Source: a candidate division WOR-3 bacterium (GTDB lineage: Bacteria; SDB-A). From it: a stretch of 64,000 bases of DNA. Location of the stretch: contig JAFGSQ010000056.1 in the NCBI GenBank assembly GCA_016934535.1, positions 43,602 to 107,601 on the forward strand, read 5' to 3'. The number at the start of each line of letters is the position of its first letter. Position 1 is the stretch's first letter. The notes beneath the pieces were generated by a model. It saw nothing but the letters and a program-made list of their open reading frames with translations. It was not told the origin of the DNA and made no database searches. Made by a program: the position numbers and the translations under genes. Below, piece by piece: positions 11,750-36,129 of the stretch.

Positions 11750-11756
11750 GATAAAG

Positions 11757-11785
11757 ATTAAAATGGCTGGGTCGAACGTTGTCAA
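11757..11785 (-). promoter_or_regulatory. Promoter of the flippase gene, predicted leaderless
   Basis: TTGACA (11785-11780), a 17-bp spacer and TTTAAT (11762-11757), followed by 7 bp and the ATG at 11749. Both hexamers and the spacing are near-consensus. The -35 shares its bases with the -35 of the divergent glutaredoxin promoter. Confidence 0.65.
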
Positions 11786-11806
11786 ATCTATTTTTCATGT
11801 TATATT
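11779..11806 (+). promoter_or_regulatory. Promoter of the glutaredoxin gene
   Basis: TTGTCA (11779-11784), a 16-bp spacer and extended -10 TGTTATATT (hexamer 11801-11806). The start site would be near 11813, leaving a leader of about 14 nt with GGAG at 11817-11820. Its -35 occupies the same base pairs as the -35 of the divergent flippase promoter. Confidence 0.6.
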
Positions 11807-11826
11807 TAGACAAAAAGGAGAAAAAA

Positions 11827-12060
11827 TTGTCAGTGAAAATTTATACTACCCCTTCATGTTCCTACTGCAATTCGGTCAAGACATATCTCAGGCAGAAAGG
11901 AATATCTTTCAGTGAAGTAGACGTCTCAAAAAATCAGGCGGCGGCAGATGAAATGGTAAGAAAGAGCAATCAGCAGGGAGTGCCGGTCATAGAAGCCAAT
12001 GGTAAAATCATAGTTGGATTCAACAAGCCTGCTCTGGACAAAGCTCTGAATTTAACATAA
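11827..12060 (+). CDS. Glutaredoxin-family protein
   Basis: The product is a 77-residue single-domain thioredoxin-fold protein. The redox motif CSYC follows the first beta strand (VKIYTTPSCSYC). The cis-Pro loop is GVPVIEANGKIIVGF, typical of NrdH/UXX-star-type small glutaredoxins. The TTG at 11827 is chosen because GGAG lies 6 bp upstream; a GTG at 11833 is the alternative, and an ATG-led extension upstream lies in promoter sequence. Probable role: cytosolic thiol-disulfide exchange, with thioredoxin reductase or glutathione as possible reductants. It shares a promoter region with the divergent flippase gene and converges on histidine ammonia-lyase. Confidence 0.87.
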   Translation: MSVKIYTTPSCSYCNSVKTYLRQKGISFSEVDVSKNQAAADEMVRKSNQQGVPVIEANGKIIVGFNKPALDKALNLT

Positions 12061-12069
12061 CACTGTCCA

Positions 12070-13578
12070 TTATTTCAGTATACAGTTCATAGACCCATCT
12101 GAAGGACTTTTTTCTACGGCTTTTATGCCCTTGGACACTTCGTGGTCTTCTTCGACGTGAGGGAATTTTGCCCTGACGAAATCGAAGATTTGTGTGGTTC
12201 CCTTCCCGAGTTTTTCCCTCTTGTTCTCAAGGTCGACAGCCCTTGCAGCCGTCAGCAGTTCTATGGCTATGATGCTTGAGACAAAACCTTCTGATTCCAG
12301 ACACTTGAGAGCTGAGTTCGATCCGAAACTGACGTGATCCTCTCTTCCCGCCGAAGTCGGCAGTGAATCCGAAGAGCACGGATTTGCCCTGTTTTTTACG
12401 AGGTTGAGAAGTGAAGCTGCAGTGAGGTGTGCGATCATATATCCGGACTCGACTCCCGGTTTTGACGCCAAAAAAGGAGGCAGACCGCTTCTCTTGTCGT
12501 CGAGCAGGAGGTCGGTCCTTCTCTCTGAAATGCCTGCGATGTTGGAAAGAGCTATTGCGAGCGAGTCCATGGCAAAAGCTATGGGCTGGCCGTGGAAATT
12601 GCCGCCTGAAAGGATTTCATTTTGGTCGGGAAATACGAGCGGGTTGTCTGTTACGGAGTTTATTTCAATTTCGAGCGTCTTTTTAACCTGAGCAAGTGAG
12701 TCTTTGAGGACGCCGTGGACTTGCGGTATACATCTGAGGGAATAGGGGTCCTGAACCCGCGGGTGTGAAGAGGAATGGATGTTTTTGCTCCCAGCGCATA
12801 GATGTCTGATGTTTTCCGCCGTTTTTATCTGTCCCTCGTAGGGTCTGAGTTCGTGGATTTTTGCGTCGAACGCTTCCGGTCTTCCGTCGAAAGCTTCGAG
12901 AGTCAGCGCTCCCGCCATGTCTCCGGAAATTGAAATATTTTTAGCTTTTTCGTACGCGAGGATTCCGACCGCAGTCATGAACTGGGTCCCGTTCAAGAGC
13001 GCGAGACCTTCCTTTGCCTTGAGGACGAGAGGTTTCAGACCGCTTTTTTCGAAGAAGGACTGCGCCTCCATTCTTTCTCCCTTGAAGTAGACAAAACCCC
13101 TTCCTATTAGTCCGAGTGTAAGATGCGCAAGAGGGGCGAGATCACCGGATGCGCCGACTGAACCGAGGGACGGGACTTCAGGGTATGCACCCGTGTTCAA
13201 AAAATCTTTTATAAGTATTAATATTTCTGGTCTGACTCCGGAATGCCCTTTGGCAAGGACGCAGGCCCTGAGGAACATCATTGCGCGGACGGCTTCTTCC
13301 GGTAAAACAGGTCCAGTTCCGCAACTGTGAGAGAGGACCAGATTCAGCTGAAGCCTGTCTATGAGATCGGGAGGTATCTTTTTTTCGGCCAGCGATCCGA
13401 ATCCCGTGTTGACTCCGTAGACGGAAGTATTCCCGGAAGCTGCTTTTTCAACTGCGGCTCTCGCTTTTTTAACTTTTTCCATAGCGCTTTCGGTTACCGA
13501 AACCTCTGCTTTTTCGACGGCGACTGAGATTACGTCTTCTATTGATATGTCTTTTTCGGATAACATAACTTTTTTCAC
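12070..13578 (-). CDS. hutH: Histidine ammonia-lyase (copy 1, canonical MIO motif)
   Basis: The 502-residue enzyme deaminates L-histidine to urocanate. The MIO prosthetic group would form from the Ala-Ser-Gly in GSVGASGDLAPLAH (about residue 145). YGVNTGFG near the N-terminus supplies the catalytic Tyr loop, and NSVTDNPLVF, GGNFHGQP and SAGREDHVS are present as in bacterial HutH. The start is GTG at 13578, because GGAGG lies 5 bp upstream; the ATG at 13590 overlaps that ribosome site. A possible -10 TATACT lies at 13611-13606. No hutU, hutI or hutG is nearby, so the fate of urocanate is not shown. A second lyase lies at 55709-57235. Confidence 0.93.
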   Translation of the reverse strand: MKKVMLSEKDISIEDVISVAVEKAEVSVTESAMEKVKKARAAVEKAASGNTSVYGVNTGFGSLAEKKIPPDLIDRLQLNLVLSHSCGTGPVLPEEAVRAMMFLRACVLAKGHSGVRPEILILIKDFLNTGAYPEVPSLGSVGASGDLAPLAHLTLGLIGRGFVYFKGERMEAQSFFEKSGLKPLVLKAKEGLALLNGTQFMTAVGILAYEKAKNISISGDMAGALTLEAFDGRPEAFDAKIHELRPYEGQIKTAENIRHLCAGSKNIHSSSHPRVQDPYSLRCIPQVHGVLKDSLAQVKKTLEIEINSVTDNPLVFPDQNEILSGGNFHGQPIAFAMDSLAIALSNIAGISERRTDLLLDDKRSGLPPFLASKPGVESGYMIAHLTAASLLNLVKNRANPCSSDSLPTSAGREDHVSFGSNSALKCLESEGFVSSIIAIELLTAARAVDLENKREKLGKGTTQIFDFVRAKFPHVEEDHEVSKGIKAVEKSPSDGSMNCILK

Positions 13579-19750: not shown

Positions 19751-22700
19751 ATGAAAAATTCAATGAAGACAAGAAGGTTAGTCCCAAACATTGTCGAAGA
19801 TTTTTTCCTCAATAAAATACAGTTCAAAGAGTTTGAAGGAGCGGTTTTGTTCCTCGACATTTCCGGCTTCACTTCGACAACGGAAGAGCTGATGAAAAAC
19901 GGAAAAGAAGGCGCTGAGGTACTTTCAAAAATAATAAACGACGTCTTCACTCCGGCGATATCCGCCGTCGAAAGACATTCCGGGTTCGTCCCAGTTTTTG
20001 CAGGAGACGCGTTTTATGCCGTGTTTCCAGCCGGAAAGAAAATTAATAAATCCTCCACAGTGTCCGCTCTTTTAGCCGCCGGCGAGATTGTGAGTGAATT
20101 CACCGGTTTGAATCCCGTCAAAACCAGGTTTGGAGATTTCGTTTTCTCGCCTAAAATCGCCCTATCGTCTGGTAAAATCATTTTTAAGACAATCGATTGC
20201 GGCGGACGGTACTTGTATTATTTTCAGGGAAAACCGTTTGACGAGACGGCTGAACTGCAAAAAAAATGTGGTGACAATGAAGTTTTGGCGAATACAAAAA
20301 TAAAAAAAGCCGTAAAAACTGACAAAAGATACAAGTTTATAAAGAAAACCGAAAATTTTTTTGCCGCGGATATTAGATTAAAAAAAAACAAAGAGCTGAA
20401 AAAACAGTCGAAAAAGATTTCGATCCGAATTGCAGAAAAATTCATTCCAAAGAGTGTTCTTTCCAAAAAAGAAACGGGTGAATTCAGGGACACAGTGGCG
20501 TGCTTCATTTCTCTGGAAAGAGTTAAAGACATTGATCAGGCAATAAAAAACGCCGTCGTCATTTCAGAGAAATTCGGTGGGTACATGAACAAAATAATCG
20601 CAGGCGACAAAGGGGTTGTAGCCCTGACTATTTTCGGCGCTCCGACGGCGGTCGAGAAACCTCTTGAAAAAGCCGTCAGATTCTCACTTGAGCTCAATTC
20701 GGTGTCAAAACGCTCTGTGAAGACGGGAATTTCCCGAGGAGTGACCTACGCTGGATTTGTCGGATCCCCGGATATGAGCGAATACACTGTGATGGGAAAA
20801 AGCGTCAACCTGGCGGCAAGATTGATGGTAAAAGGTAAAAAAGGGCAAATTCTGATTGATGAAAGAACAGCACAGGCGTTAACGGACAGATTCATTCTAA
20901 AGACTGAAGGAAAGCGGAAATTCAAAGGAATCAAGGAAAGAATGGATTTGTTTTCAGTTGATGAGGCGGGCAAAGAAGAAATCACGGGAAATTTTGACGA
21001 CCTTTTTGTAGGAAGAGAAAAGGAAAGAAATCAGATCATTGATGTTCTGAAAAAGACTTTGAAAGAAAAGGTCAACGGAGGAATGATTTTCATCGACGGA
21101 GAACCTGGCATGGGCAAGACCAGACTCGTGTCTGAAGTTCTGAACGAAGAGGAAATAAAAGATTCGTTCACGATTGTATTTTTATCATTTGAACCTTCGC
21201 AGAGTGAAAGCCTGTCGCCTTTCGTAAAATTTTTGAAAAACTACTTTTTCAGTGCAAAAAACGATTTCGACGCTGTTTTGAGTGAACTGGCTGAAAAAAC
21301 CGGAGACAGAGTTTTGAGGGAAGAGCTTTTGCGGGGAAGAGATTTTTTGGCTTACTTCACCGGTGTTGAAAAAGACTTGATCAATTACCCGGGAATCAAA
21401 CCCGAAAAAATAAGCGAAAATTTTTTTTACGCTTTTAAAGCGATGATCAAAGCGCTTTCTTCATTTAAGCCGATCATTTTGACCGTGGATGATTTTCAAT
21501 GGGTGGATGAAGATTCTATAGATCTTATGAGGGTGCTTTCGATAAACGTCGAAAAATTCCCTTATGTCTTTTTAGCTACCTGCAGATTGAAAGACGACGG
21601 TCAGGTCTTTGACCCGGAGACTGAATTTCCTGTTGTCAAAAGAATATTAATAGAACATTTCGGCGTAGAACTGACGGGAAAAATGCTTGAAAACACATGG
21701 AAGTCAGAAAAACTGCCCCAAAAGACTATTGAGTTTTTTCACGAAAAAACCGGTGGGAATCCGTTTTTTATAGAACAGTTCGCGCTTTATTTCATGGAAA
21801 ATAAACTTTTAAGTCCAGATTTCAGCATAGCAGGCCAAACCGATGGTATTCCCTCTGATATAAATTCGGTCATAACAGCCAGATTCGACAGGCTGACGGA
21901 TGATTTGAAAGAAGCCATCAAAAACGCGTCTGTTCTCGGCAAGGAATTTGCCGTCGATGTTTTGTCCCGGATGCTGAGAAATAAAAGGATATCCCGCGAC
22001 CTAAGGTCGGGAGAAAACGAACAGATATGGACGAGGATTGAAAAAATTAGATACATGTTCAGGCACGTTCTCATAAGAGATTCAGTCTATCAAATGATAC
22101 TCAAAGAGAAACTGAGATCTCTTCATAACCTCGCAGGAAGCATAATCGAAGAGATATACGCCGAAGATATTTCAAGTCATTATGTCGAACTTATTGAGCA
22201 CTGGGACAGGGCTGAAAACGCCGATAGAGTTATTAAAACCGGGAGAGACGCCGTCAAACATGCCGCTGAAAAAGGTATGAAAAAAGACTCTCTGACCTGT
22301 TATGAAACTATGGACAGGTATTTGACCGGTTCGGAAAAGACTGTCAACAAAATACAGTGGGCGCAGACCCTTTATAATACTTCGAATTTCAAAAAAGCGA
22401 TTGCCGTGGCTGAGGAAGCTCTCATTGAAGCTGAAAAAGATCATGACAAAAAATCTCACAGTAGATTGGTCAATTTGATTTTCGAAGTGAAGCTTCACGT
22501 CGGAGACAGGGAAGAAATCAGAAGAAAGTTCGACGCATTAAAAGAGCTTCTGGAGAACACAGACGACCCTGTATCTCTGATCAACACTCTCGACAATATT
22601 GCCATGTATCATCATCACTCCGGGTATGAAGAACAGGGTTATGTCTACGCAAAGAGGGCTTTGGAAGAGGCAGAAAAACTTGCAGATTCATCGGAGAACA

Positions 22701-23584
22701 GACAGTATCTCAATATACTTGCAAAAAATTACAGCATAATATCCGTGTTTTTCGGAAGGGAAGTCGGCCTTGACAGGGTTTTTGAGTATCTGGACAGAGC
22801 TCTTAAAATCGCTGAAAGAATTGAAAGTAAACCCGCCAAGGCTGTTTTGTACGGTAATCTCGGTCTTTCATACATGGAGATAAAACTCGACGCGGATAAA
22901 GCCATGTTTAATTTTAAAAAAGCCCTGGAACTATACGAAGAATTCCAGGATAGAAACGGATCGGTGACGACACTTAACAACATGGCATTGATTGCTCTGC
23001 ACAAAAAAGAATTAAAAAAGGCCGAAGAATTGTTCAGAAGAGCTCATTCAATATCGATTGAAATCGGAGACATTCCTGTACAAATACTCTGCCTTATCAA
23101 TTTGTGCAGTGTCGAGAGAAATAGGGGCAGGTACGATAAAGCTCTCGCGTTGCTGGACGAAGCAATTGAAAAAGTGAATAAATGCGGCAAAGACCTTTTT
23201 CTTGCGGAACATTACGACATCAGGTTTGGAATCAATATCCTGAAAAAGGACTATGAAGAAGCCGAAAAGAGCAACGAAGCCCTTCTTGCGATGCACGGAA
23301 AACTTAAAAATGATTATCTGCTTTTCAGGTATGAGATAAACTCAGCCGAATTGGTTTACGAGCGGGGTGACGCAGAAAACGCTGAAAAAAAACTGAATCA
23401 AATGCTCGAAAAATGGGGAAATACGATCCAAAAGGCGGAAATATTTTACTTGATGTGGAAAATCAAACGGACAAGCGAGTCCAGGCAAAGGGCTGCATAT
23501 CTATACAAAAAACTGATAGAAGAGGAAACCGGAGAGTACAAACAGCTGTCCTATATTGACAAGTATGAAGAATTGACTTCTTAG
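19751..23584 (+). CDS. Soluble-adenylyl-cyclase-like protein: two class III cyclase domains, AAA/STAND ATPase, TPRs
   Basis: The product is 1277 residues with no membrane segment. Cyclase domain 1 (about 30-200) has VLFLDISGFT with a metal Asp36 and FAGDAFYAVF with metal Asp86. Cyclase domain 2 (about 240-400) has ADKGVVALTIFG-like sequence and the EYTVMGKSVNLAARLM block with the transition-state Asn and Arg. An ATPase follows (GEPGMGKTRLV near 452; ILTVDDFQWVD near 578), then TPR repeats from about 870 to 1250. This is the layout of mammalian soluble adenylyl cyclase (ADCY10) and related bacterial proteins. The base-specifying Lys of ADCY10 domain 1 (four residues before the second metal Asp) is Val82 here, so cAMP production is not assured. 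Probably a cytosolic signalling hub. Confidence 0.85.
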   Translation: MKNSMKTRRLVPNIVEDFFLNKIQFKEFEGAVLFLDISGFTSTTEELMKNGKEGAEVLSKIINDVFTPAISAVERHSGFVPVFAGDAFYAVFPAGKKINKSSTVSALLAAGEIVSEFTGLNPVKTRFGDFVFSPKIALSSGKIIFKTIDCGGRYLYYFQGKPFDETAELQKKCGDNEVLANTKIKKAVKTDKRYKFIKKTENFFAADIRLKKNKELKKQSKKISIRIAEKFIPKSVLSKKETGEFRDTVACFISLERVKDIDQAIKNAVVISEKFGGYMNKIIAGDKGVVALTIFGAPTAVEKPLEKAVRFSLELNSVSKRSVKTGISRGVTYAGFVGSPDMSEYTVMGKSVNLAARLMVKGKKGQILIDERTAQALTDRFILKTEGKRKFKGIKERMDLFSVDEAGKEEITGNFDDLFVGREKERNQIIDVLKKTLKEKVNGGMIFIDGEPGMGKTRLVSEVLNEEEIKDSFTIVFLSFEPSQSESLSPFVKFLKNYFFSAKNDFDAVLSELAEKTGDRVLREELLRGRDFLAYFTGVEKDLINYPGIKPEKISENFFYAFKAMIKALSSFKPIILTVDDFQWVDEDSIDLMRVLSINVEKFPYVFLATCRLKDDGQVFDPETEFPVVKRILIEHFGVELTGKMLENTWKSEKLPQKTIEFFHEKTGGNPFFIEQFALYFMENKLLSPDFSIAGQTDGIPSDINSVITARFDRLTDDLKEAIKNASVLGKEFAVDVLSRMLRNKRISRDLRSGENEQIWTRIEKIRYMFRHVLIRDSVYQMILKEKLRSLHNLAGSIIEEIYAEDISSHYVELIEHWDRAENADRVIKTGRDAVKHAAEKGMKKDSLTCYETMDRYLTGSEKTVNKIQWAQTLYNTSNFKKAIAVAEEALIEAEKDHDKKSHSRLVNLIFEVKLHVGDREEIRRKFDALKELLENTDDPVSLINTLDNIAMYHHHSGYEEQGYVYAKRALEEAEKLADSSENRQYLNILAKNYSIISVFFGREVGLDRVFEYLDRALKIAERIESKPAKAVLYGNLGLSYMEIKLDADKAMFNFKKALELYEEFQDRNGSVTTLNNMALIALHKKELKKAEELFRRAHSISIEIGDIPVQILCLINLCSVERNRGRYDKALALLDEAIEKVNKCGKDLFLAEHYDIRFGINILKKDYEEAEKSNEALLAMHGKLKNDYLLFRYEINSAELVYERGDAENAEKKLNQMLEKWGNTIQKAEIFYLMWKIKRTSESRQRAAYLYKKLIEEETGEYKQLSYIDKYEELTS

Positions 23585-23589
23585 CTGGG

Positions 23590-24069
23590 TTAGTTCTTTT
23601 GACGGCGTTTTTGTAAAAAAATCAGGTCTGATAAAAAGGCGGCTGTCAAAACAGCAAAAATTGTAAATGTTTCGAGTCTAAAAAAACTTCCTTTGACTTC
23701 GGGAAGATTTTGAAACAGAACAATGAAAATTGTCTTTATGGGCTCAAACCAACTTTTTGCTTGGGTCAGAACGTCAATTCTTACAAGATAAAATACAGCG
23801 CAAGCCGCCACGGCCAAGAAATACAAGCAGTTCAACAGCCTTTCTTCGGTTTTGATCTTTTTTCTTCTTGCCGAAACGGCTTTGACCGTTTTGATTGTGA
23901 AGTCCCTAGGTATTTCAGTCCTCTCAGAAGAGAGGTGTTTGAAAAGAGTCTCGTATTCACTTAGTTTCTTTGAACAGGACGCGCAGTGGGAGAGATGGTC
24001 TGTCACAGATGCGTCTTTTTTCCCCCCGTCGAGAAATTCCTGAAAAATGTCTTCGTCAACATGCTTCAT
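23590..24069 (-). CDS. Anti-sigma factor with zinc-finger (ZAS-like) N-terminus
   Basis: The product is 159 residues. The N-terminal 40 residues carry the ZAS motif (Asp-His-x3-Cys-x2-Cys, DHLSHCASC) that clamps ECF sigma factors. Two transmembrane helices follow (about 82-98 and 135-150). It would hold the sigma factor encoded just upstream at the membrane until a signal inactivates it. The start codon lies inside the sigma gene (14-bp overlap), giving coupled synthesis. AGGCGGC-like sequence precedes the ATG. Confidence 0.83.
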   Translation of the reverse strand: MKHVDEDIFQEFLDGGKKDASVTDHLSHCASCSKKLSEYETLFKHLSSERTEIPRDFTIKTVKAVSARRKKIKTEERLLNCLYFLAVAACAVFYLVRIDVLTQAKSWFEPIKTIFIVLFQNLPEVKGSFFRLETFTIFAVLTAAFLSDLIFLQKRRQKN

Positions 24070-24652
24070 TTGCCGCCTCCTGCGTTCTTAATACCATATC
24101 TTTCAGGTTTTTTCGAGCCCGGAATAGATAATTTTTTACCGTTCCTAAGGGCATCGATAAAGCGTAAGATATTTCTTCGTATGAAAAATTTTCCGTATGA
24201 TAAAGGGATATTATCTCTCTCTGGACAGGATGAAGCCTCTCCAGGCATTTTTCTACCAGCTGATTGCACTCCTCCCTTTGCCGGTTAAGAGAGGATTCTT
24301 TATGAGAATTTTGTAAGGACTTTTCATCCAAAAATATCTCTTCTTTTTCTCCAAAATTCATTTTGCTGAAAGATACGGTTTTTTTTCTTTTTTTAAGCAA
24401 GTTGCACGCGTGATTGTATGATATTTTCGCTATCCACGTAGAAAGTTTACAACCGTGTTTAAAAGAGCCGAGGTTTTCATAGATTTTTATGAATATTTCC
24501 TGACAAGCGTCCTCGAGATCGTCGCTGTCTTCAATCAGTTTTCCCGCGACGTGAAAGACCAGTTTTTTGTATGAATCAATGAAAAAAACGAGAGCTTCTT
24601 CGTCTCCCGACATTATTCGCCGGATTAATTCTTTTTCTTCTTTTTGATCCAT
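24056..24652 (-). CDS. ECF (RpoE-type) RNA polymerase sigma factor
   Basis: The 198-residue protein has sigma region 2 (DLEDACQEIFIKIYENL, then LSTWIAKISYNHACNLLKK) and region 4 (LHPVQREIISLYHTENFSY, then LGTVKNYLFRARKNL), joined by a long variable linker. It should direct RNA polymerase to a small stress or envelope regulon. It is co-transcribed with its anti-sigma. The promoter is a perfect vegetative extended -10 (TGATATAAT) only 6 bp before the ATG, so the gene seems constitutively transcribed as a leaderless mRNA rather than auto-activated. No Shine-Dalgarno precedes the ATG. Confidence 0.9.
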   Translation of the reverse strand: MDQKEEKELIRRIMSGDEEALVFFIDSYKKLVFHVAGKLIEDSDDLEDACQEIFIKIYENLGSFKHGCKLSTWIAKISYNHACNLLKKRKKTVSFSKMNFGEKEEIFLDEKSLQNSHKESSLNRQREECNQLVEKCLERLHPVQREIISLYHTENFSYEEISYALSMPLGTVKNYLFRARKNLKDMVLRTQEAANEAC

Positions 24653-26096: not shown

Positions 26097-26139
26097 CGGT
26101 TTTTTGATTTATATCAGTAATTATTACCTGAAAAAACCG
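26097..26139. terminator. Possible bidirectional terminator hairpin between convergent genes
   Basis: A 9-bp inverted repeat, CGGTTTTTT at 26097-26105 and AAAAAACCG at 26131-26139, flanks a 25-nt loop containing the stop of the minus-strand gene. The T/A runs lie within the stem, so either strand gives a U-rich arm. The large loop makes it weak. Confidence 0.35.
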
Positions 26140-29077
26140 CTCCGGATCCGTTTCTGCCGTCCATGAGGACGGTCAATCCTTCGGGGAATTCCACGTGGGC
26201 GCAATATTCTTTTGCACAGGTAATATTCTTCTTTTTGATGATATCCCAGTTTATGAAATCTTTTTCGCTGTTGTAAGGAACTGTCAGATAACCTATGTTG
26301 AGAGTGGTAATGTTGTGAAAAAAATGAGAACCCAGCGAAGGATCTATCTGAAAATCCTTTGTTCCGTATTCGACTATCGTTCTGGCGCCTGAAATCTGGT
26401 TCCATTTGACAGGTATCCCCAGGAACCTGTCGCTCGTCCCCCATCTTCCAGGGCCTATCAGGAGATAAGGCTTTTTCGCGTCTTTTAGCTTCTGATTGAA
26501 GTGTTCTACTTCTTCGGCGATTTTGAGCGTTTCCATCTTTTTGAACTTTTCGGGAAAAACGAAAACTACGTCTTTTATTCCTTCCACTTTGCCGTTTCCC
26601 AGGGTTTGTGTTGTCGATATGAAAACGTTTTTACCTTCGAGCTCCGAGGAGTCAATTTCGTAATTGTCGAAATTTCTTATGAAAGGCTTGAGCTGGAGAA
26701 TGTAAAAAACGGGTTTTTTACCGAGTTCGACCGCGAATTCAATTTCAACGGGTGTTCCGAGAGCGGTTTTAAAGACTGCGAGAAGTTTTTGAAGAACGTC
26801 AGAAAGTGGAAAAGATTCGTATTTCAATATGTTTGCAAAATTTATTATTCTCGGTCCATCGGTTCCCAGGTATCCGGAAAACCTGTTGTTCTGCCAGTCC
26901 CAGACTGAAGCAACATCTTTCAGAGCGCCGTCTTTTTCAGCGTCTTCGAGGGAGGATTTTACAAGGGTGATGTCTTCGCCGAGAGAAAGATCGAAATCGC
27001 TTTTTCCCATATCGAGCGCCCAGAAATAGGTCTGTGAATTTTTAAGCTGGTCGTCAGATGAATAAAAGTCGATTTTTGGGTGCTTGGGGCAGAACCTGAA
27101 AGCCCTGTCGCCGTCTACGACGTATGTTCCAAGGCCAAGAGCAACGACCGCGATGCCGTCTTCCGGTTTTATATAGGAAACAGGATAGTAATTGTATGAC
27201 TGGGCGACTCCGGAAAATGACGGATAAAACCTTCCGTTAACCGAATTTCCGACCAGTTTCTGTATGACAACAGCCATTTTTTCTTCTTCTATGTTGTAGC
27301 CGATGGATTCGAAATAGGTCTTGGCGACCTTGGAATAAACCGAAGAGTAAACAAGTTTTACAGCGTCCGTGAACTGCTTGTATCTGATCTCGAAATTGTA
27401 ATTGGAGTTTGGTATTATGTATGTCTCGTAAATGCCTGAAAAGGGGTGGGATATCGAGTCTTCGAAAACCGCTGTAGATCTGACTGCGAGAGGATGGTTG
27501 ATTTTCTGAAGAAGTATCCTGAATTTTTTTTCGAGATCCTCAGGAAGCGAAGAAGAAAGAAATTTTTGTTTGATTTTTTCATGGTCGTCCTCTTCAATGG
27601 CAAATTCCAGAAGGTCGTTTTTTTCGATGAACTGGTCGAATGAATCCGTACCGACCAGGTATGTTTTCGGTATTCTGATGCTTGCACCCTGCACTGAGTT
27701 TTCAAGAGCGCTGTTTTGAAGAAGTGAACTGATAAAAGCGATTCCCCTTCCTTTGCCTCCGAGTGCTCCCGCCGAAAGCCTCACAATGCTGTCTCCTTCG
27801 GTGAGGTATTTGTCGTCGAAATTGATTATTTTTCCCTTCGATTTTTTGTATTCTACAAGCTTTGTCATATTGGACAAATGGAACTTGATTTCTCTGGGGC
27901 TTTCAAAATCGACTGTTTTCATCCTGCGCAAGCTTTCGGCAATTTTAAATTCGCCTCTGGCAGCGAACCATGTCGAAAAATCATTTCTTTCGAAATGGTA
28001 AAAAATGGAATCTTCGGGTATTTTTTCTATTTTTTTCTCGAAATCGTCCAAATTGAGAGCTTCGTCGAGAATATCACCCGTATCATTCTTGAACAAAAAA
28101 GGGCCGAAACCGAGTTCATTTTTGATGAAATCTCTGACCTGGGTTGAGAGCCGGTCAGAATTTTTGTCAATAAAAGAAACTTTCAAATCTTTCGCTTTTT
28201 CTGCCGTCGAGGGTTCCGAAGATTGAAGAAGAGCTATGAGGTCGGGAGAAGTTTTCCTGAATTCTTCGATCAAGGAAATGCCTGCCGATTCGTCCAGAAA
28301 ACCTTCTTTGGGAAAACGGCGGTCCGTAATAAGGCACATCAGGTAATTTTTGAAATTGGTAAAAATTGTCCGGGCTTCCTCGAAATTCATGGCGAGGAGG
28401 ACCTTGGGCCGGGTCTTGTATCTTGTTATCTTTCTCGTTTCGTCGAATTTCTCTTCGGTTATCAGAGTGTGTGTCTGTTTTATTATTTCACGGTACAGAA
28501 GCGGAAGATATTTTGAATAATAGACCGGCGAGTCTTCGACAAGAAGGATTATCCTGACAGAAGCGAGAGAGGTGTCGTTTAAAGCGTTTTTATAATCTTC
28601 GACATATTTGCTCATCGCCAGGAATATTTTCGCGTCGCCGTTCCAGATGAAAATCTTGTCTATGGCGCTTGGTCTGTCTTTCCACTGTTCGACGATCTTT
28701 ATGTCGGAATTGTCGTTTAACAGAAGAAACACCGGCAAATCGGGATCTAATTCCCTTATTGAAAGACTGGTTTCGTAAGGTTGAAAGTCGTCTATTCTCA
28801 TTGTCAGTATTACAAGATCGATTTTTTTTTCTTTTATCGCCTGAACAGCTTTTTCCTTGGAATAGACAGAAGTTATTCTCGGCGCGTCCGCCAGGCTGAT
28901 TTTGAAATACTCTTCGAACAGCATGTCACTGAGAAGTCCTTCTTCTTCAAGAATATAAGAATCGTACAACGTCGCGACGAGTAGAATTTCTCTTATCTTG
29001 AAAGGAGAAAGTCCACGGTTTATGTCGGAGCTTATCCTGAGATTTTCCTCGTATTGAGTGAGTTCAAAGTCTGACAT
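26114..29077 (-). CDS. Receiver-like / PEP-pyruvate-binding (PPDK_N) fusion protein, unknown function
   Basis: The product is 987 residues. Residues 30-165 look like a degenerate receiver domain. Residues 173-335 look like a second one: LLVEDSPVYY near 180, a possible phospho-acceptor Asp in LITDRRF near 249, and ALLQSSE. An ATP-grasp PEP/pyruvate-binding domain follows (GALGGKGRG near 440, LAVRSTAVFED near 532, EIEFAVELGKKPVFYILQLKP near 780). A C-terminal module contains LIGPGRWGTSD near 877 and GSHFFHNI. It lacks the swivelling phospho-His domain and the PEP-utilising barrel, so it is not a PEP synthase or PPDK. Its start overlaps the end of its partner gene (29064-31412) by 14 bp, and the pair shares both modules. 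Confidence 0.75.
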   Translation of the reverse strand: MSDFELTQYEENLRISSDINRGLSPFKIREILLVATLYDSYILEEEGLLSDMLFEEYFKISLADAPRITSVYSKEKAVQAIKEKKIDLVILTMRIDDFQPYETSLSIRELDPDLPVFLLLNDNSDIKIVEQWKDRPSAIDKIFIWNGDAKIFLAMSKYVEDYKNALNDTSLASVRIILLVEDSPVYYSKYLPLLYREIIKQTHTLITEEKFDETRKITRYKTRPKVLLAMNFEEARTIFTNFKNYLMCLITDRRFPKEGFLDESAGISLIEEFRKTSPDLIALLQSSEPSTAEKAKDLKVSFIDKNSDRLSTQVRDFIKNELGFGPFLFKNDTGDILDEALNLDDFEKKIEKIPEDSIFYHFERNDFSTWFAARGEFKIAESLRRMKTVDFESPREIKFHLSNMTKLVEYKKSKGKIINFDDKYLTEGDSIVRLSAGALGGKGRGIAFISSLLQNSALENSVQGASIRIPKTYLVGTDSFDQFIEKNDLLEFAIEEDDHEKIKQKFLSSSLPEDLEKKFRILLQKINHPLAVRSTAVFEDSISHPFSGIYETYIIPNSNYNFEIRYKQFTDAVKLVYSSVYSKVAKTYFESIGYNIEEEKMAVVIQKLVGNSVNGRFYPSFSGVAQSYNYYPVSYIKPEDGIAVVALGLGTYVVDGDRAFRFCPKHPKIDFYSSDDQLKNSQTYFWALDMGKSDFDLSLGEDITLVKSSLEDAEKDGALKDVASVWDWQNNRFSGYLGTDGPRIINFANILKYESFPLSDVLQKLLAVFKTALGTPVEIEFAVELGKKPVFYILQLKPFIRNFDNYEIDSSELEGKNVFISTTQTLGNGKVEGIKDVVFVFPEKFKKMETLKIAEEVEHFNQKLKDAKKPYLLIGPGRWGTSDRFLGIPVKWNQISGARTIVEYGTKDFQIDPSLGSHFFHNITTLNIGYLTVPYNSEKDFINWDIIKKKNITCAKEYCAHVEFPEGLTVLMDGRNGSGAVFSGNNY

Positions 29078-31412
29078 CGGTATCGATTCCGTTTAGTTTT
29101 AAAAAACCAATTGCGTAAGAAGAATCGCCATCCATGACTATTTCGCCTGAATAACCTTTGGCCTGTTCTTCAATGTCAATAACCCTTATCACGCTTTCGA
29201 AGAGCTCTTTTTTTCCAGGAGAGAGATTGACGAGTGAAGAAAGACTGTTTTTTGATAAAGTGAAAAAATCATTGTTGAAAACAGAGTTCTCGTCGTCCGG
29301 GTAAAGTGGGAGGTATTTTATCTGTGATTCGACCAGATCCTGGAAAAAATGGGTTCCGAAAGACAGCTCCGGCATGTATCCTTTTTTCTGTTTTGCTATT
29401 TCGATGAGCATGGCGGTGTTGTTTATGTCGCTGTACGTCACTCTGACGCCGAGTTTGATATCACCCCTGCTTCCCCATCTTCCGGGTCCGGCCAAAATAA
29501 ATTTCTTTTTGGGTAGTTCCGAGTTGAGCTGTGAAACTATTTTTCCCACAGTGATCAGATCGTTGAGCTCTTCCATGGAGTCGTATGCGAAAGGGTCTAT
29601 GAAAACTATGTACCGGATGTCTTTTACGAGTGCGTTGGTGACATATTTTTTAGCCGTGAAAAGAATTTTGTCCCGAGGTATGTCGCGCGGCATTGATACC
29701 GAAATTATCTCTTTTGAATGACTCTGAGGTCTGCACTGGAGCAGGTAAAACTTCTCGGTTGCGGCGTTGAATGCAAATTCGATGTCAACAGGATAACCGA
29801 GAGCTCTCTTGAGAACATCGAGTATCGTTTTAATATAGTTTATGAACCTGCCTTTTTTTATCAAATTCGCAAAGGTGATTACAGGTTCGCCTTTTGAGAG
29901 ATCGACGAGGCTTCCGACAGACTGGTGAAGCTGTCCGTCTGAAAACAACGAAACTATGTCGGGCAATCCCGGCAGATTTGTTCCTGCGTCTTCAATGAGT
30001 TTTTCGAGTGATATGGATTCGAATTTTCTGGTCTCGAGGTTAATGACGTCAATGTATTTTTGTGAATAATGGAAGGATTCTTCGGGAGTGGAGTTGACTT
30101 TCAAGCCCGGTTGGCCTGGACACAAAAGAAGGGGATAGTCGTCACCAAGCCTGTCGACGGCTCTGGTTCCGAGTCCCGCGACGAGCCTTATTATTCCGTC
30201 GTCCTTTTTTATCCTCGGCGACCATCTGAACTCGTTGTCTGTGAAGGCTACACCGGCGAAAGCCGGAAGATAGTACTTGCCGATTTTTGTGCCGACGACT
30301 TCCTGAATCATCAAAGCCATTTCTTCGTTGAAATCCAGCAGGCCGTTCTCTCTCCTGTATTCTATGACGTCCGGGCTGAATACGCTGGAGTAAACTTCCT
30401 CTATTGCATCTATGAGAGCTTCCAGCCTCTCTTTCTTTGTCCCCTGGTTGGAAACGAAAAGGCTTTTGTATTTTCCTGCGAATGCAGCTTCGGGGCTGTC
30501 TTCGAGAAGACTCGACGAGCGGACTATAATTGGGGAATCTCCGAAATCGTCAAGAGCAACGCTGAACATCGAAATGAATTCGAGTGGCATTATCGAGTTT
30601 TTAAAAATCTGTTCGATGTAGGGATACTCTTTCCTGATCTCAAGCGGGTCGTGGTACTTTATCCTCTGGAATTCTTCAAGAGCGTTGGAATGAAGAAATT
30701 CAAAAATGCCGTCTGAAGTTATGAACCATGTCTTGGGAGTCTGGATTTCACCGAGCACGCTGAATTCTTCGGACTTGCTTTTGAGTATCTGTTTCGCCCT
30801 TATCATTCCCGCGGCTTTTCCTCCCAGTTTGCCGTTGCCTTTCGACGGGCCAATGGTTTTGTTGAGGATGTCAATGAAGTCATCGATTGTAATGTGGTCC
30901 TTAAGAGTGTTTATGTAAGACAGATTGTTGCTCAAAAATCTTCTTATCAGAGCCACCCTCACTCCCAGTCTGTCTTCCTGAGTCAGAGCGTCTTTCAGGT
31001 GAGGCTGTTTGGAAAAAGTGTACAAGGCGTTGTGAATCTCATCGAAAGCGACGTCTCTTTTCTCAGCTGATTTCATAAGGAAATTCAGGTTCTCATTTTT
31101 TATCCACATCCTTATCACATTTGTAATTTCTTCATCTCCGATTTCATCTTCGGCAATTTTAAAGACTTCTCCTATCATTTTTTCCAGAGTTTGTGTGTTT
31201 ATTCGCGGATGGGGTTGATTGTCGTCCAGGCTTTCCTCGAAATCGAACATAGTCACGGATTTGTCTATGTTAAGGACTATGTTTTCAATTTTCGTAATGT
31301 CTTTTTTAAACAGGTAGTTCATCATTCTTCTGCCGAGCCTCTTGTACAGCACAGGATTCGCCTCTTCGAGAAGATCTATTATTATTCTCCACTCAGGTTT
31401 ATTTGAGGACAT
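29064..31412 (-). CDS. PEP-pyruvate-binding (PPDK_N) domain protein, partner of the receiver-like fusion
   Basis: The product is 782 residues. About 190 N-terminal residues are helical and unassigned. The ATP-grasp PEP/pyruvate-binding domain spans about 190-565: GKLGGKAAGMIRA near 197, SPIIVRSSSLLEDSPEA near 300, and a closing DIEFAFNAATEKFYLLQCRP. A C-terminal module (about 590-760) has LAGPGRWGSRGD near 644 and SFGTHFFQDL, shared with the downstream partner. As in the partner, the phospho-His and barrel domains of PEP synthase are absent. GGAG precedes the ATG. It starts 18 bp beyond the gdh terminator, so it needs its own start site or read-through. Nucleotide-dependent activity is likely; substrate unknown. 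Confidence 0.78.
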   Translation of the reverse strand: MSSNKPEWRIIIDLLEEANPVLYKRLGRRMMNYLFKKDITKIENIVLNIDKSVTMFDFEESLDDNQPHPRINTQTLEKMIGEVFKIAEDEIGDEEITNVIRMWIKNENLNFLMKSAEKRDVAFDEIHNALYTFSKQPHLKDALTQEDRLGVRVALIRRFLSNNLSYINTLKDHITIDDFIDILNKTIGPSKGNGKLGGKAAGMIRAKQILKSKSEEFSVLGEIQTPKTWFITSDGIFEFLHSNALEEFQRIKYHDPLEIRKEYPYIEQIFKNSIMPLEFISMFSVALDDFGDSPIIVRSSSLLEDSPEAAFAGKYKSLFVSNQGTKKERLEALIDAIEEVYSSVFSPDVIEYRRENGLLDFNEEMALMIQEVVGTKIGKYYLPAFAGVAFTDNEFRWSPRIKKDDGIIRLVAGLGTRAVDRLGDDYPLLLCPGQPGLKVNSTPEESFHYSQKYIDVINLETRKFESISLEKLIEDAGTNLPGLPDIVSLFSDGQLHQSVGSLVDLSKGEPVITFANLIKKGRFINYIKTILDVLKRALGYPVDIEFAFNAATEKFYLLQCRPQSHSKEIISVSMPRDIPRDKILFTAKKYVTNALVKDIRYIVFIDPFAYDSMEELNDLITVGKIVSQLNSELPKKKFILAGPGRWGSRGDIKLGVRVTYSDINNTAMLIEIAKQKKGYMPELSFGTHFFQDLVESQIKYLPLYPDDENSVFNNDFFTLSKNSLSSLVNLSPGKKELFESVIRVIDIEEQAKGYSGEIVMDGDSSYAIGFLKLNGIDTDVRL

Positions 31413-31430: not shown

Positions 31431-31459
31431 AAAAAACAGGGGCGGAAAATATCCGCCCC
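31431..31459 (-). terminator. Intrinsic terminator of the glutamate dehydrogenase gene
   Basis: Read on the minus strand: an 8-bp stem GGGGCGGA/TCCGCCCC (31459-31452 with 31446-31439), 5-nt loop, then TGTTTTTT. It lies between gdh and the PEP/pyruvate-binding gene. Confidence 0.85.
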
Positions 31460-31469
31460 AAAAATTGGA

Positions 31470-32756
31470 TCAGACCCAGCCTCTCACCCTGCATGATTCG
31501 GCGACTCTTTGGACAGAAATCATGTAGGCGGCGTCTCTCATGTATAAATTCTGTTTTTTGGCAAGGTCGGCTACGGCGCGGTATGCCGCTGTCATTTTCG
31601 TGTCCAGGTTTTTGAGAACTTCTTCTTTAGTCCAGAAATAGTTCATGTTGCATTGAACCTGCTCGAAGTAACTGCAGGTCACTCCGCCTGCATTGGCCAG
31701 AAAATCAGGCACGATGTATATGTTTTTTTCTTTCATATATTTGTCTGCTTCAGGAGTAGTGGGTCCGTTGGCTCCTTCCGCAATGAGTTTGACTGAAGGT
31801 TTGATCTTTGCGACATTGTCACCGGTTATCTGGTTTTCGAGGGCCGCAGGGACAAGTATTTCAGCTTCCTGTTCGAGCCATGCCTCTCCGGGAAGGACTT
31901 CATAGCCGAGAGATTTGGCTTTTTCCTTGTTAATCCCTCCGAATCTGTCCGTAATGTCACGCAGTTCATCTATGTCGAATCCCTTTGTTTTCTTGAATGA
32001 ATAAGAGGTCTGATCTTCCTGATCCCAGCAGGAGACACAAACAGGCGTTCCTCCGTATTCGACGTACAGACGGATTGCGTACTGGCTGACGTTGCCGAAT
32101 CCCTGGAATGAAGCTCTCGTTTTTTTTATGTCGAGACCGAGATCCTTGAGGGCTTCCCTGACAGTGTACATAACGCCGTATCCGGTGGCTTCCGTTCTGC
32201 CGAGAGAGCCTCCTACGCCGACAGGTTTGCCGGTTATCATGCCTGGATATTTTCCGGAATGAATTCTCTCGTATTCGTCGAGCATCCATATCATGTGCTG
32301 ACCGGAGGTCATCACGTCAGGAGCCGGCACATCCTGCAGAGGACCTATTTCGTATGATATCTGCCTGACCCATCCTCTGCAAATACCTTCCTGTTCTCTT
32401 TCTGAAAGATGATGCGGGTCACAAATAACTCCCCCTTTTCCCCCTCCGAGAGGAATGTCCACAACCGAACACTTCCATGTCATCCACATCGCCAGAGCTC
32501 TCACAGTGTCGAGCGTTTCAAGCGGGTGAAACCTGATTCCGCCTTTACAAGGTCCTCTCGAATCGTTGTGCTGGACTCTGAACCCTCTGAAAACCTTGAC
32601 CGAACCGTCGTCCATCCTTACCGGGATGCTGAATGAATATTCTCTCAGGGGAGTGCGCAGCAAGTCCCTTGTGGCTTGATCTAAACCGAGTTTTTCGGCC
32701 GTGTTGTCGAATTGCTGCTGAGCCATTTTGTACGCGTTGAAAGACTTTTCAGACAC
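31470..32756 (-). CDS. gdhA: Glutamate dehydrogenase (Glu/Leu/Phe/Val family)
   Basis: The 428-residue hexameric-type enzyme interconverts glutamate and 2-oxoglutarate plus ammonia. Motifs present: RVQHNDSRGPCKGGIRFHP (substrate site Lys), PLGGGKGGV with the catalytic Lys, PAPDVMT, Rossmann FQGFGNVSQYA, and AEGANGPTTPEAD. Coenzyme specificity is not clear. The GTG at 32756 is preferred because AGGAGG lies 5 bp upstream; a GTG at 32762 overlaps that site. It is monocistronic, with its own promoter and terminator. It is a plausible ammonia sink or source beside two histidine ammonia-lyases in the window. Confidence 0.95.
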   Translation of the reverse strand: MSEKSFNAYKMAQQQFDNTAEKLGLDQATRDLLRTPLREYSFSIPVRMDDGSVKVFRGFRVQHNDSRGPCKGGIRFHPLETLDTVRALAMWMTWKCSVVDIPLGGGKGGVICDPHHLSEREQEGICRGWVRQISYEIGPLQDVPAPDVMTSGQHMIWMLDEYERIHSGKYPGMITGKPVGVGGSLGRTEATGYGVMYTVREALKDLGLDIKKTRASFQGFGNVSQYAIRLYVEYGGTPVCVSCWDQEDQTSYSFKKTKGFDIDELRDITDRFGGINKEKAKSLGYEVLPGEAWLEQEAEILVPAALENQITGDNVAKIKPSVKLIAEGANGPTTPEADKYMKEKNIYIVPDFLANAGGVTCSYFEQVQCNMNYFWTKEEVLKNLDTKMTAAYRAVADLAKKQNLYMRDAAYMISVQRVAESCRVRGWV

Positions 32757-32792
32757 AAACACCTCCTAAAAAAGTTAAAAATAAATATGCAG

Positions 32793-33354: not shown

Positions 33355-34021
33355 AATGTTTCGGATTAAAACCCCTTTTCTCGCCGTTTTCGACATGGAC
33401 GGAACGCTTTACAGATCCGATGCTTCGTTTATTCCCGCCGTAAAATCTCTTCTTTCGAACAACGGCTTAGAAGTACCGGCCGACGATTTCCTGTTTTCTT
33501 TCATTGGGGAGCCCGACAGCGTTTTTATTGATTGGCTGGCGAAATTATCTTCAAACGGAAACGCTGACTCTCTTTACAATGAATTTCAAAGAAGCGAATT
33601 GAACATGGTAAGAGAAAGGGGAGAATTGTATGACGGAGTCCTCTCTCTTCTTGACTGGCTCAAAGAAAACGGTTTCACATTGGCCGTTTGTTCAAACGCT
33701 ACAAAAGTTTATATTGATACGGTACTGGAGAAGTTCAGACTAACCGAACTATTTTCGGCAGTGAGAGTCCCTGCGGGTTCTGAAAGCAAAAAAAAGATGC
33801 TGAAAGAAATCAGTGATCAGTTTTCTCCGGAAATAGGTTTTATGGTGGGAGACAGGATTCACGATATGCAGGCGGCTTTTGAAAACGGATTTGCATTTAT
33901 CGGAGCTCTTTACGGTTTCGGAAGGAAAGAGATAGAGACAGCCGAAAATTGTGCTGAAAGCCCGTTTGAGATTAAGCCTATTTTTGAAAAAAGACTTTCA
34001 GATGCAAAACTTCAGATCTGA
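33347..34021 (+). CDS. HAD-superfamily hydrolase (phosphoglycolate-phosphatase-like)
   Basis: The 224-residue HAD phosphatase has motif I FDMDGTLYRSD near residue 18 with the nucleophile Asp, a helical cap, motif II VCSNATK, a motif III Lys in ESKKKMLKEI, and motif IV MVGDRIHDMQAA. The layout is that of Gph/PGMB-type small-molecule phosphatases. The ATG at 33347 is chosen; the ATG at 33356 is possible. It overlaps the GNAT gene upstream and runs 24 bp into the opposite-strand nucleotidyltransferase gene. Confidence 0.88.
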   Translation: MSEMFRIKTPFLAVFDMDGTLYRSDASFIPAVKSLLSNNGLEVPADDFLFSFIGEPDSVFIDWLAKLSSNGNADSLYNEFQRSELNMVRERGELYDGVLSLLDWLKENGFTLAVCSNATKVYIDTVLEKFRLTELFSAVRVPAGSESKKKMLKEISDQFSPEIGFMVGDRIHDMQAAFENGFAFIGALYGFGRKEIETAENCAESPFEIKPIFEKRLSDAKLQI

Positions 34022-34711
34022 ATCTTCAATTTTGAATACGGTTTCTTTCTTGCCTGCGTCAAACCACATTGATCCATCATCTTCCTGAAAGCCTATTTTT
34101 CCACGGAATGGTTTTGACAAATAGAAGTCGATAATCGAAAAAGGAAGCTTGGGACAGGCGTGAAAAAAAATCGATGAACTTACGCATTGAATACCTGAAA
34201 ATGCGTAAGTTCTGTACCCGGGATTTGAATACTTGCTGGAAGATGTCTTTCTTTTAAGAAGGAATCCGTTTTCGTCGAACAGAAGATGCCTCATTGTGTC
34301 GCGTTTTTTCACGGACAGTGTAGCCAGGTTTGATGAACCGGCGTGATAATCGTAAAGAGAAAGCAGGTTCGTGTCTGATATGATGTCGACATTGTGGACG
34401 AGGAATTGCTTGGAATCTTTAAAAAAATTTCTGGCATTGAAAATACCTCCTCCCGTACCCAATGGGAAACTCTCTTCTCTATAGAAGGATATCTCGGCCC
34501 CGAAAAATTTTTTGGACTCAGCGTATGAGATCACGTCGTCGGCGAAATGATGGACGTTTACTGCAATTTCTTTGAAACCCTGGCTGACGAGCTTGCGAGC
34601 GACGATTTCAATCAAAGGAATACCTTTGATTCTGACGAGAGCTTTTGGAGTATTTCGCGTCATCGGCATCAGTCTTTTACCGAATCCTGCGGCGAGAATC
34701 ATTGCCTTCAC
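33998..34711 (-). CDS. MurU-like sugar-1-phosphate nucleotidyltransferase
   Basis: The 237-residue NDP-sugar pyrophosphorylase has the signature MILAAGFGKRLMPMTRNTPKAL, then PLIEIVARKL, LGTGGGIFNA and FLVHNVDII. Size and order match N-acetylmuramate-1-phosphate uridylyltransferase (MurU). The GTG at 34711 overlaps the stop of the upstream kinase-RapZ gene by 4 bp (GTGA). That coupling to an AmgK-like kinase supports a role in activating MurNAc/GlcNAc-1-phosphate for wall recycling (inference). The 3' end overlaps the convergent HAD gene by 24 bp. It is the last gene of the 20.7-kb minus-strand run. Confidence 0.85.
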   Translation of the reverse strand: MKAMILAAGFGKRLMPMTRNTPKALVRIKGIPLIEIVARKLVSQGFKEIAVNVHHFADDVISYAESKKFFGAEISFYREESFPLGTGGGIFNARNFFKDSKQFLVHNVDIISDTNLLSLYDYHAGSSNLATLSVKKRDTMRHLLFDENGFLLKRKTSSSKYSNPGYRTYAFSGIQCVSSSIFFHACPKLPFSIIDFYLSKPFRGKIGFQEDDGSMWFDAGKKETVFKIEDSDLKFCI

Positions 34712-36129
34712 TTGAAATCCGTTTCGAGGTGAGATATCTGGACAAATACTTTTTTGTCGCCTTTTAGGAGGTCTTTCAGTTTTTCTGCGCAGTAGACTGA
34801 TCTGTGCTTTCCTCCGGTGCACCCGAAATACACGTCGAGCTGTTCAAAGTTTCGTTCTATGTAGTTTTCCAGAGCCCCGTCCACCGTTTTTTTCATGTTG
34901 GCGATAAAAGATGAAACCCCTGGATCCTTGTCGAGGAAAAGGGCGACTTCAACGTCTTTGCCTGTCAAAGATGCAAGTCCGGCTTCTCTTCCGGGGTTGA
35001 TCAGATGCCTGCAATCGAAAACGAACCCCCCTCCGTGAACTCCAAGGTCCCGAGGTATCCCTTTTTTGTATGAAAAACTCTTTATCCTGACCGTGAGTTT
35101 GCCCTTTTCAAGAGAAGGCGTGAGCCCGGCTATCTTTTCGAGAGATTCATTCAGGGATTCTTCTACGGCGGGAAATAATCCGGAACGAATTTCACGGATT
35201 ATTTCCAGGGCGTTTTCTACGGCTTCACCGACACAGTTTTTAAAAGAAGCGTTCTGCCCGTGATAGCCTCTCAAACCGTAAGCACCCAAGTTTTGAAGTA
35301 TTCTGAGAAGAGCGCACAAAAAAAAGTTTTCCAAAAAACAGGGAGAAGATGAGAAAGGTCTTATTTGGTCTGTATGTGAATAGAAATCAAAAAGCTGTTT
35401 TCGTTCGCTTTTTTTCAAGCTGGCTCTTGTCTGAAATATAAGGGAAGCGGCGTCGTACAGAAGGGGTCCATTCCGGCCGCCGGTGAAGTCTAATACGTAT
35501 ATTTTTTCGTTTTTGAATATTATGTTTCTCGATTGAAAATCCCTGTGCACGAAAGCTCGTTGCGGAATTTTGTTTACCAGAGAAGACATGAGTGAAAATT
35601 CTTTTTCGAGTCGCGGTTCGTCGAAAGTAACTTCGAAAAGCTTAAGAAAACAGTATTTAAAGTAATAAAGATCCCACAGCACTGAATGCCTGCTGAATTT
35701 ATTTATCGGCCGGCACATTTTGTAATCAATTTTTTTATCAACTTCCGTCTGCATCAGAGCGAGAAATTCGAGAGCCTTTTTGTACAGCGACATTGTTTTG
35801 GCGTTTAAATGATGAGAATCGGTTTTTTTTGACAATGACAGGAGTGATTCTTCACCGGCGTCTTCGCAAAGAAATATTCGTCCGGTTCTGTCTTCTATGT
35901 ATATTTCGGGGACGCTGACAGAGGAATCCTTCAAAACTCCCGTCAGATAGGAAAAAACATTCCCTTCATTTTTGCTCTTAAAATACTGGCAAAAAGCCGC
36001 TTGGTCGCCTCTTTTTATTCTGGCGAACAACTTGGATGAGTCGGTGGAGCTGAAAAAGGAAAATTCTTCGGCTTCGGCGCCGAAGTGCTTCTTAAAAAGC
36101 GAAGAGGCTTCAGATCTGAAGTTTGTCAA
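34708..36129 (-). CDS. Fusion of an AmgK-like sugar kinase with a RapZ C-terminal domain
   Basis: The product is 473 residues. Residues 1-330 have the aminoglycoside-phosphotransferase/choline-kinase fold: RAFVHRDFQSRNIIF near 190 (Brenner motif with catalytic Asp and metal Asn) and VLDFTGGRNGPLLYD. Together with the adjacent MurU-like gene this is the layout of AmgK, the anomeric MurNAc/GlcNAc kinase. Residues 345-470 match the RapZ C-terminal domain: SYKKGIPRDLG, FVFDCRHLINPGR, GKDVEVALFL, FGCTGGKHRS. RapZ's own N-terminal P-loop domain is absent. In E. coli the RapZ C-terminal domain senses glucosamine-6-phosphate and binds small RNA. Here it could regulate the kinase or bind RNA (inference). 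Confidence 0.83.
   Translation of the reverse strand: MTNFRSEASSLFKKHFGAEAEEFSFFSSTDSSKLFARIKRGDQAAFCQYFKSKNEGNVFSYLTGVLKDSSVSVPEIYIEDRTGRIFLCEDAGEESLLSLSKKTDSHHLNAKTMSLYKKALEFLALMQTEVDKKIDYKMCRPINKFSRHSVLWDLYYFKYCFLKLFEVTFDEPRLEKEFSLMSSLVNKIPQRAFVHRDFQSRNIIFKNEKIYVLDFTGGRNGPLLYDAASLIFQTRASLKKSERKQLFDFYSHTDQIRPFSSSPCFLENFFLCALLRILQNLGAYGLRGYHGQNASFKNCVGEAVENALEIIREIRSGLFPAVEESLNESLEKIAGLTPSLEKGKLTVRIKSFSYKKGIPRDLGVHGGGFVFDCRHLINPGREAGLASLTGKDVEVALFLDKDPGVSSFIANMKKTVDGALENYIERNFEQLDVYFGCTGGKHRSVYCAEKLKDLLKGDKKVFVQISHLETDFK

Follow-up and report, generated by a model that had tools for sequence, protein, structure and literature searches.

The question raised by this locus is what is accomplished by two overlapping genes that each encode an ATP-grasp domain of the PPDK_N type. 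PPDK_N is the ATP-binding half of enzymes of the PEP synthase/pyruvate phosphate dikinase (PPDK) type, and such domains transfer (pyro)phosphate from ATP to a His of an adjacent domain. An initial annotation of the window (the whole stretch of 64,000 nucleotides analysed here) described the two products, P0001 and P0002, as PEP/pyruvate-binding proteins that form a two-protein system by themselves. We find that both belong to a family which recurs beside glutamate dehydrogenase (GDH) genes in bacteria that are only distantly related, among them gut Bacteroidales, and which therefore probably turns GDH on or off.

Organisation of the locus

The two reading frames do overlap by 14 bp (29064-29077), as first described, but the pair is not self-contained, since the gene encoding a type II GDH lies 57 bp upstream of P0002 and was overlooked in the initial annotation, and since class A (the architecture of P0001) is often found without class B (that of P0002). 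The genes thus form a minus-strand string gdh–B–A with gdh first (Table 1); the GDH itself scores below the equivalog cut-off of NF040817 among the NCBIfam models. Comparison with congeners places the pair under strong purifying selection, with dN of 0.08-0.16 and dS near saturation, and a true PEP-utilising enzyme is encoded elsewhere in the source genome, on contig 4.

Table 1. Features of the gdh–B–A locus, in window coordinates
Feature	Position	Strand	Description
Class A protein P0001	26114..29077	-	987 aa; pseudo-receiver, receiver, linker, PPDK_N ATP-grasp, C-terminal GPGRWG module
C-terminal module of P0001, residues 814-987	26117..26638	-	G877 R878 W879, E903, S914-x-G916-x-H918-F919
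PPDK_N of P0001, residues 438-801	26675..27766	-	Pfam E 2e-37
REC2 of P0001, residues ~172-328	28094..28564	-	hhalign prob 95.6, E 1e-8
REC1 of P0001, residues ~29-165	28583..28993	-	hhalign prob 97.5, E 7e-12; Pfam Response_reg E 1.3e-5
Class B protein P0002	29064..31412	-	782 aa; helical N-terminal region, PPDK_N, C-terminal GPGRWG module
C-terminal module of P0002, residues 573-782	29067..29696	-	G644 R645, E671, S684-x-G686-x-H688-F689
PPDK_N of P0002, residues 195-572	29697..30830	-	Pfam E 1e-54
Hairpin between gdh and class B	31439..31459	-	strong, terminator-like; recurs in relatives
GDH gene	31470..32762	-	430 aa, type II; nearest NCBIfam model NF040817

The hairpin at the gdh/class B junction recurs in the two relatives with junction sequence (L034 and L023), where the stem is preserved despite base changes, and in several other lineages gdh is likewise followed by a hairpin. 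A terminator-like structure in this position implies that gdh would be made in excess over its controllers, and suggests that far less of the latter is produced than of GDH, which would suit catalysts better than stoichiometric subunits.

Other genes of the neighbourhood were also noted. A 1277-aa protein with an adenylate/guanylate cyclase domain, an AAA_16 ATPase and TPRs is encoded at 19751-23584 (+), and a similar long ORF occupies the same neighbourhood in two further genomes (G001 and G002), which also share an ECF-type sigma factor gene with an overlapping probable anti-sigma gene, found in the window beyond class A at 23590-24652 (-). The window's genus includes a candidate division WOR-3 MAG (G002, JAFGIG01), and L023 is LKUE01000385.1 of the MAG 'Desulfuromonas sp. 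SDB', a name that looks wrong as the sequence matches a genome of the window's family.

An ATP-grasp domain joined to a C-terminal module

Pfam identifies PPDK_N in both proteins, and the GGKxxG and VRSxxxxED motifs noticed initially, together with the EF and Q motifs, are essentially invariant among 89 homologues. The label 'PEP/pyruvate-binding' is nevertheless a misnomer, because in the enzymes from which the label derives this domain binds ATP. The reported lack of a swivelling phospho-His domain and of a PEP barrel was upheld: neither PF00391 nor a barrel was matched by Pfam in P0001 or P0002, both of which end after the C-terminal module.

That the two proteins share this module was likewise confirmed, as the G-R of GPGRWG, a Glu and the S-x-G-x-H-F surrounding G[ST]HFF are essentially invariant in the 89 sequences, and the His (H918 in P0001, H688 in P0002) is present in 89/89. 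The initial annotation saw no acceptor His; the module is indeed not detectably a swivel domain, but this invariant His is an obvious candidate. The module has no relative in Pfam or the PDB, where a profile search returned chance matches only. It is found in 75/386 genomes by module-profile search and is always fused to PPDK_N, as judged by an open frame long enough to hold that domain, except in pieces cut by contig ends. A hidden swivel domain was considered, as the motif order and a His preceding a helix are suggestive by eye, and was rejected, as profile comparison gives it no support (hhalign probability of 0.1-0.5% against 24 swivel domains). AlphaFold2 reached a pLDDT of 39 for P0002 from a 4-sequence alignment and of 38 for the P0001 C-terminal module from a 3-sequence alignment, both too low for the models to be of use.

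Class A as a response regulator

The two receiver-like domains reported for P0001 both proved to be real receivers when compared by profile (hhalign) with the receivers of neighbouring genes, the linker serving as a negative control at 0.3%. REC1 has the receiver fold with a Thr at the acceptor position and no acceptor Asp, and REC2 has the full catalytic set of E181, D182, D252, S286 and K305, in which D252 falls on the acceptor Asp, and K305 on the Lys, of the receivers aligned by hhalign. Four of these residues (E181, D182, D252, K305) do not vary across 19 homologues, and S286 hardly does. The acceptor Asp anticipated near residue 249 therefore exists in REC2, the residue being D252. Pfam alone recognises Response_reg in only 5/9 REC2 segments, and weakly.

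Judged by its sequence, class A is a response regulator with a bona fide receiver in REC2, which makes the signal control suggested at the outset likely. At one locus (L027) the class A gene overlaps a histidine-kinase gene; across the fetched contexts, a histidine-kinase gene adjoins only a minority of class A genes. We know of no response-regulator output domain of the PPDK_N type, and none was found described in the literature on such proteins.

A widespread family with several architectures

With P0001 as query, homologues were found in 74/386 bacterial genomes of a broad sample, and six architectures were distinguished: A (two receivers, ~985 aa), A-short (no receivers, ~585 aa), B (~780 aa), B-long (~1060 aa, with a start that is GAF-like by eye and a Pol-beta nucleotidyltransferase end called by Pfam as NTP_transf_2), B2 (~780 aa) and C (~870 aa, whose start resembles a degenerate KaiC/RecA by eye and receives no Pfam call). 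B-long proteins occur at type II GDH loci (L072, L073, L074, L075 and L110) with the Pol-beta-type tail motif GSTKNxTAGPxSDIDLL, and L084 has a similar tail.

Classes A and B do not always occur together. Class A is without class B in many genomes, G006, G053, G055 and G056 among them, and class B is without class A within the fetched flanks of L084 and L110. The two-protein pair of the window is one version of the family, in which class A often stands alone. No viral relatives of the family were found, and no paper describing it was found in the literature on GDH with PPDK_N, DUF5752, BT_1972/1973 or PEP-synthase-like outputs. The family is widespread and apparently undescribed; of the novelty claimed initially, it can be said that the libraries searched contain no description of the C-terminal module.

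Linkage to GDH and glutamate metabolism

Gene neighbourhoods were taken from 71 contexts fetched besides the window and from every site of a PF00208 match in the 74 family-positive genomes. GDH lies within 5 kb of 51/91 family gene clusters, where 0.70 would be expected from genome sizes and GDH counts, and within 5 kb of 1/150 PF00391 (true PEP-utilising-enzyme) genes among the matches listed for the same genomes (Fisher p 1e-28). Some 40% of the clusters are without GDH within 5 kb, which is owing to contig ends in some instances, not in all. PF00208 was present in 74/74 family-positive genomes at a cut-off of E 1e-10 and in 35/49 family-negative genomes at the differing cut-off of E 1e-30.

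The GDH paralogues split into deeply separated types, and each type keeps its own class of partner. Type I GDH is accompanied by class A in 19/24 cases, the remaining 5 being in loci that also carry type II GDH; type II, the type of the window, is accompanied by class B, with A or A-short also present in 12/15; and type III is accompanied by B2 or C in 6/7. Furthermore, genomes with two regulators (e.g. G328, G172, G235 and G207) have a separate class for each GDH paralogue. Three class C genes with no linked GDH directly adjoin gltB/gltD (L083 and L090) or gltB (L109), and other unlinked copies lie near a glutaminase (L086), a glutamine synthetase (L054) and a GltA/NfnAB-like pair (L055), the names of the neighbours at unlinked copies being read from the sequences and not Pfam calls. 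In L083, carA/carB follow the class C and glutamate synthase genes. The shared denominator of the family loci is GDH or another gene of glutamate metabolism.

The association extends to gut Bacteroidales. WP_041525632.1 of Parabacteroides distasonis (NZ_OY725790.1) carries the annotation PEP/pyruvate-binding domain-containing protein and is homologous to class A over its full length, with 97% coverage and 36.7% identity. Its gene is divergent from gdhA, and in Phocaeicola massiliensis class A is next to gdhA in the same arrangement; in Prevotella sp. OT299 class A is present and no GDH was found within 8 kb. Baggio and Morrison reportedly observed in 1996 that activity of the B. thetaiotaomicron GdhA in E. 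coli needs a trans-acting DNA segment adjoining gdhA.

Further genes occur near class A. An APH-type kinase/RapZ C-terminal fusion followed by a sugar-type nucleotidyltransferase is found in the window's family and in Parabacteroides (window 33998-36129 (-), L142 10736-12900 and L030 16446-18601); it was considered as a part of the system, being common to Parabacteroides and close relatives, and was dismissed, as it is found in only 3/72 contexts, beyond which L067 has a weak match to the nucleotidyltransferase only. Beside an unlinked class A gene, L052 has a weak, circularly permuted ATP-grasp-like protein at 10995-12368 (CP_ATPgrasp_2, below cut-off).

A model for control of GDH

We lean, on balance, towards a model in which P0001 and P0002 represent a family of signal-controlled ATP-grasp signalling enzymes that control GDH and, in some lineages, other glutamate-producing enzymes. 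The model builds on the observed linkage to GDH, the matching of class to GDH type, the intact ATP-grasp motifs, the obligate C-terminal module with its invariant His and the sensory or receiver N-termini; from these we infer catalysis, the His step, GDH as the target and the direction of the effect. A signal, which would be phosphorylation of Asp252 in class A and other inputs in classes B and C, would gate the use of ATP by PPDK_N. Phosphate (or pyrophosphate) from ATP would then pass to the invariant His918/His688 of the C-terminal module, or be used directly there, following which GDH would be covalently modified or activated. In its simplest form the proposal is thus a receiver-gated relay that may run from ATP to His918/His688 to GDH, or to a metabolite of the glutamate pathway. 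In the window, P0001 and P0002 probably have the type II GDH as a joint target. The phospho-His step is put forward only by analogy and from the invariant His, since the module is without detectable homology to the phospho-His swivel domain.

The same observations may be read differently. The linkage could instead reflect a common pathway and not direct control, and it is rather unlikely, in our estimate, that the proteins are metabolic enzymes, i.e. ATP-dependent ligases or phosphotransferases acting on glutamate, 2-oxoglutarate or ammonia, with the GDH neighbour supplying or draining the substrate. Such a role would be in keeping with the intact ATP-grasp residues and with the non-GDH neighbours (glutamate synthase, glutaminase, glutamine synthetase and carAB), which have a metabolite, glutamate or glutamine, in common but no protein fold; however, the variable N-termini (two receivers, GAF-like, KaiC-like or helical) and the matching of paralogues to GDH types look regulatory. 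That very matching suggests physical contact, as would be made by a stoichiometric ATP/ADP sensor or assembly factor that attaches to GDH and, through nucleotide binding and with no phosphate transfer, determines GDH activity or the assembly of the hexamer. GDHs are often adenylate-regulated, and the trans-acting requirement reported for the B. thetaiotaomicron GdhA would fit a maturation factor too; we nonetheless judge this reading unlikely, and slightly less probable than a metabolic enzyme, as the full conservation of the ATP-grasp catalytic motifs and of the C-terminal His/Glu/Arg set, as well as the terminator-like hairpin between gdh and its partners, favour a catalyst.

Lastly, PPDK_N does match PEP synthases, and the proteins might be diverged PEP synthase/PPDK enzymes, or what is left of such enzymes after decay, with PEP still as product or substrate. 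This is very improbable given a domain content without swivel or barrel, the low dN and saturated dS, the separate true PF00391 proteins in the same genomes and a linkage to GDH that true PEP-utilising enzymes do not have.

Relation to known systems

GDH is a major point at which ammonia enters organic nitrogen, and to our knowledge few dedicated protein regulators of bacterial GDHs have been described. With the family in about a fifth of the broad genome sample, and beside gdhA in gut Bacteroidales, post-translational control of GDH becomes directly testable, and a function would be assigned to many proteins now labelled 'PEP/pyruvate-binding domain-containing protein'.

PEP synthase (PpsA) and PPDK have PPDK_N with its GGK, VRSxxxxED, EF and QxRP motifs in common with the pair, whereas the swivel phospho-His domain (T-[SC]-H motif) and the PEP/pyruvate TIM barrel are replaced here by a new C-terminal module and the genes are linked to GDH. 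Rifampicin phosphotransferase (RPH) and PigC/RedH, which use PPDK_N for chemistry other than PEP synthesis, are among the best sequence relatives in the PDB and NCBIfam, but they keep the swivel His domain, unlike the present pair, and scores against their family models are far below the cut-offs. Class A also resembles response regulators with enzymatic output, in that it joins a receiver (acceptor Asp252) to an enzyme-like output. Finally, GlnD/GlnE offer a functional analogy, as signal-driven covalent control is there applied to a central enzyme of nitrogen assimilation, glutamine synthetase, and a Pol-beta-type nucleotidyltransferase forms the C-terminus of some class B proteins; the folds differ, and the presumed target here would be GDH. 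In its most far-reaching form, which we hold only tentatively and consider doubtful, the model would make two-component-controlled covalent modification of GDH a widespread parallel to GlnD/GlnE, in which a PPDK-type ATP-grasp kinase works with a new phospho-carrier domain whose invariant His replaces that of the swivel.
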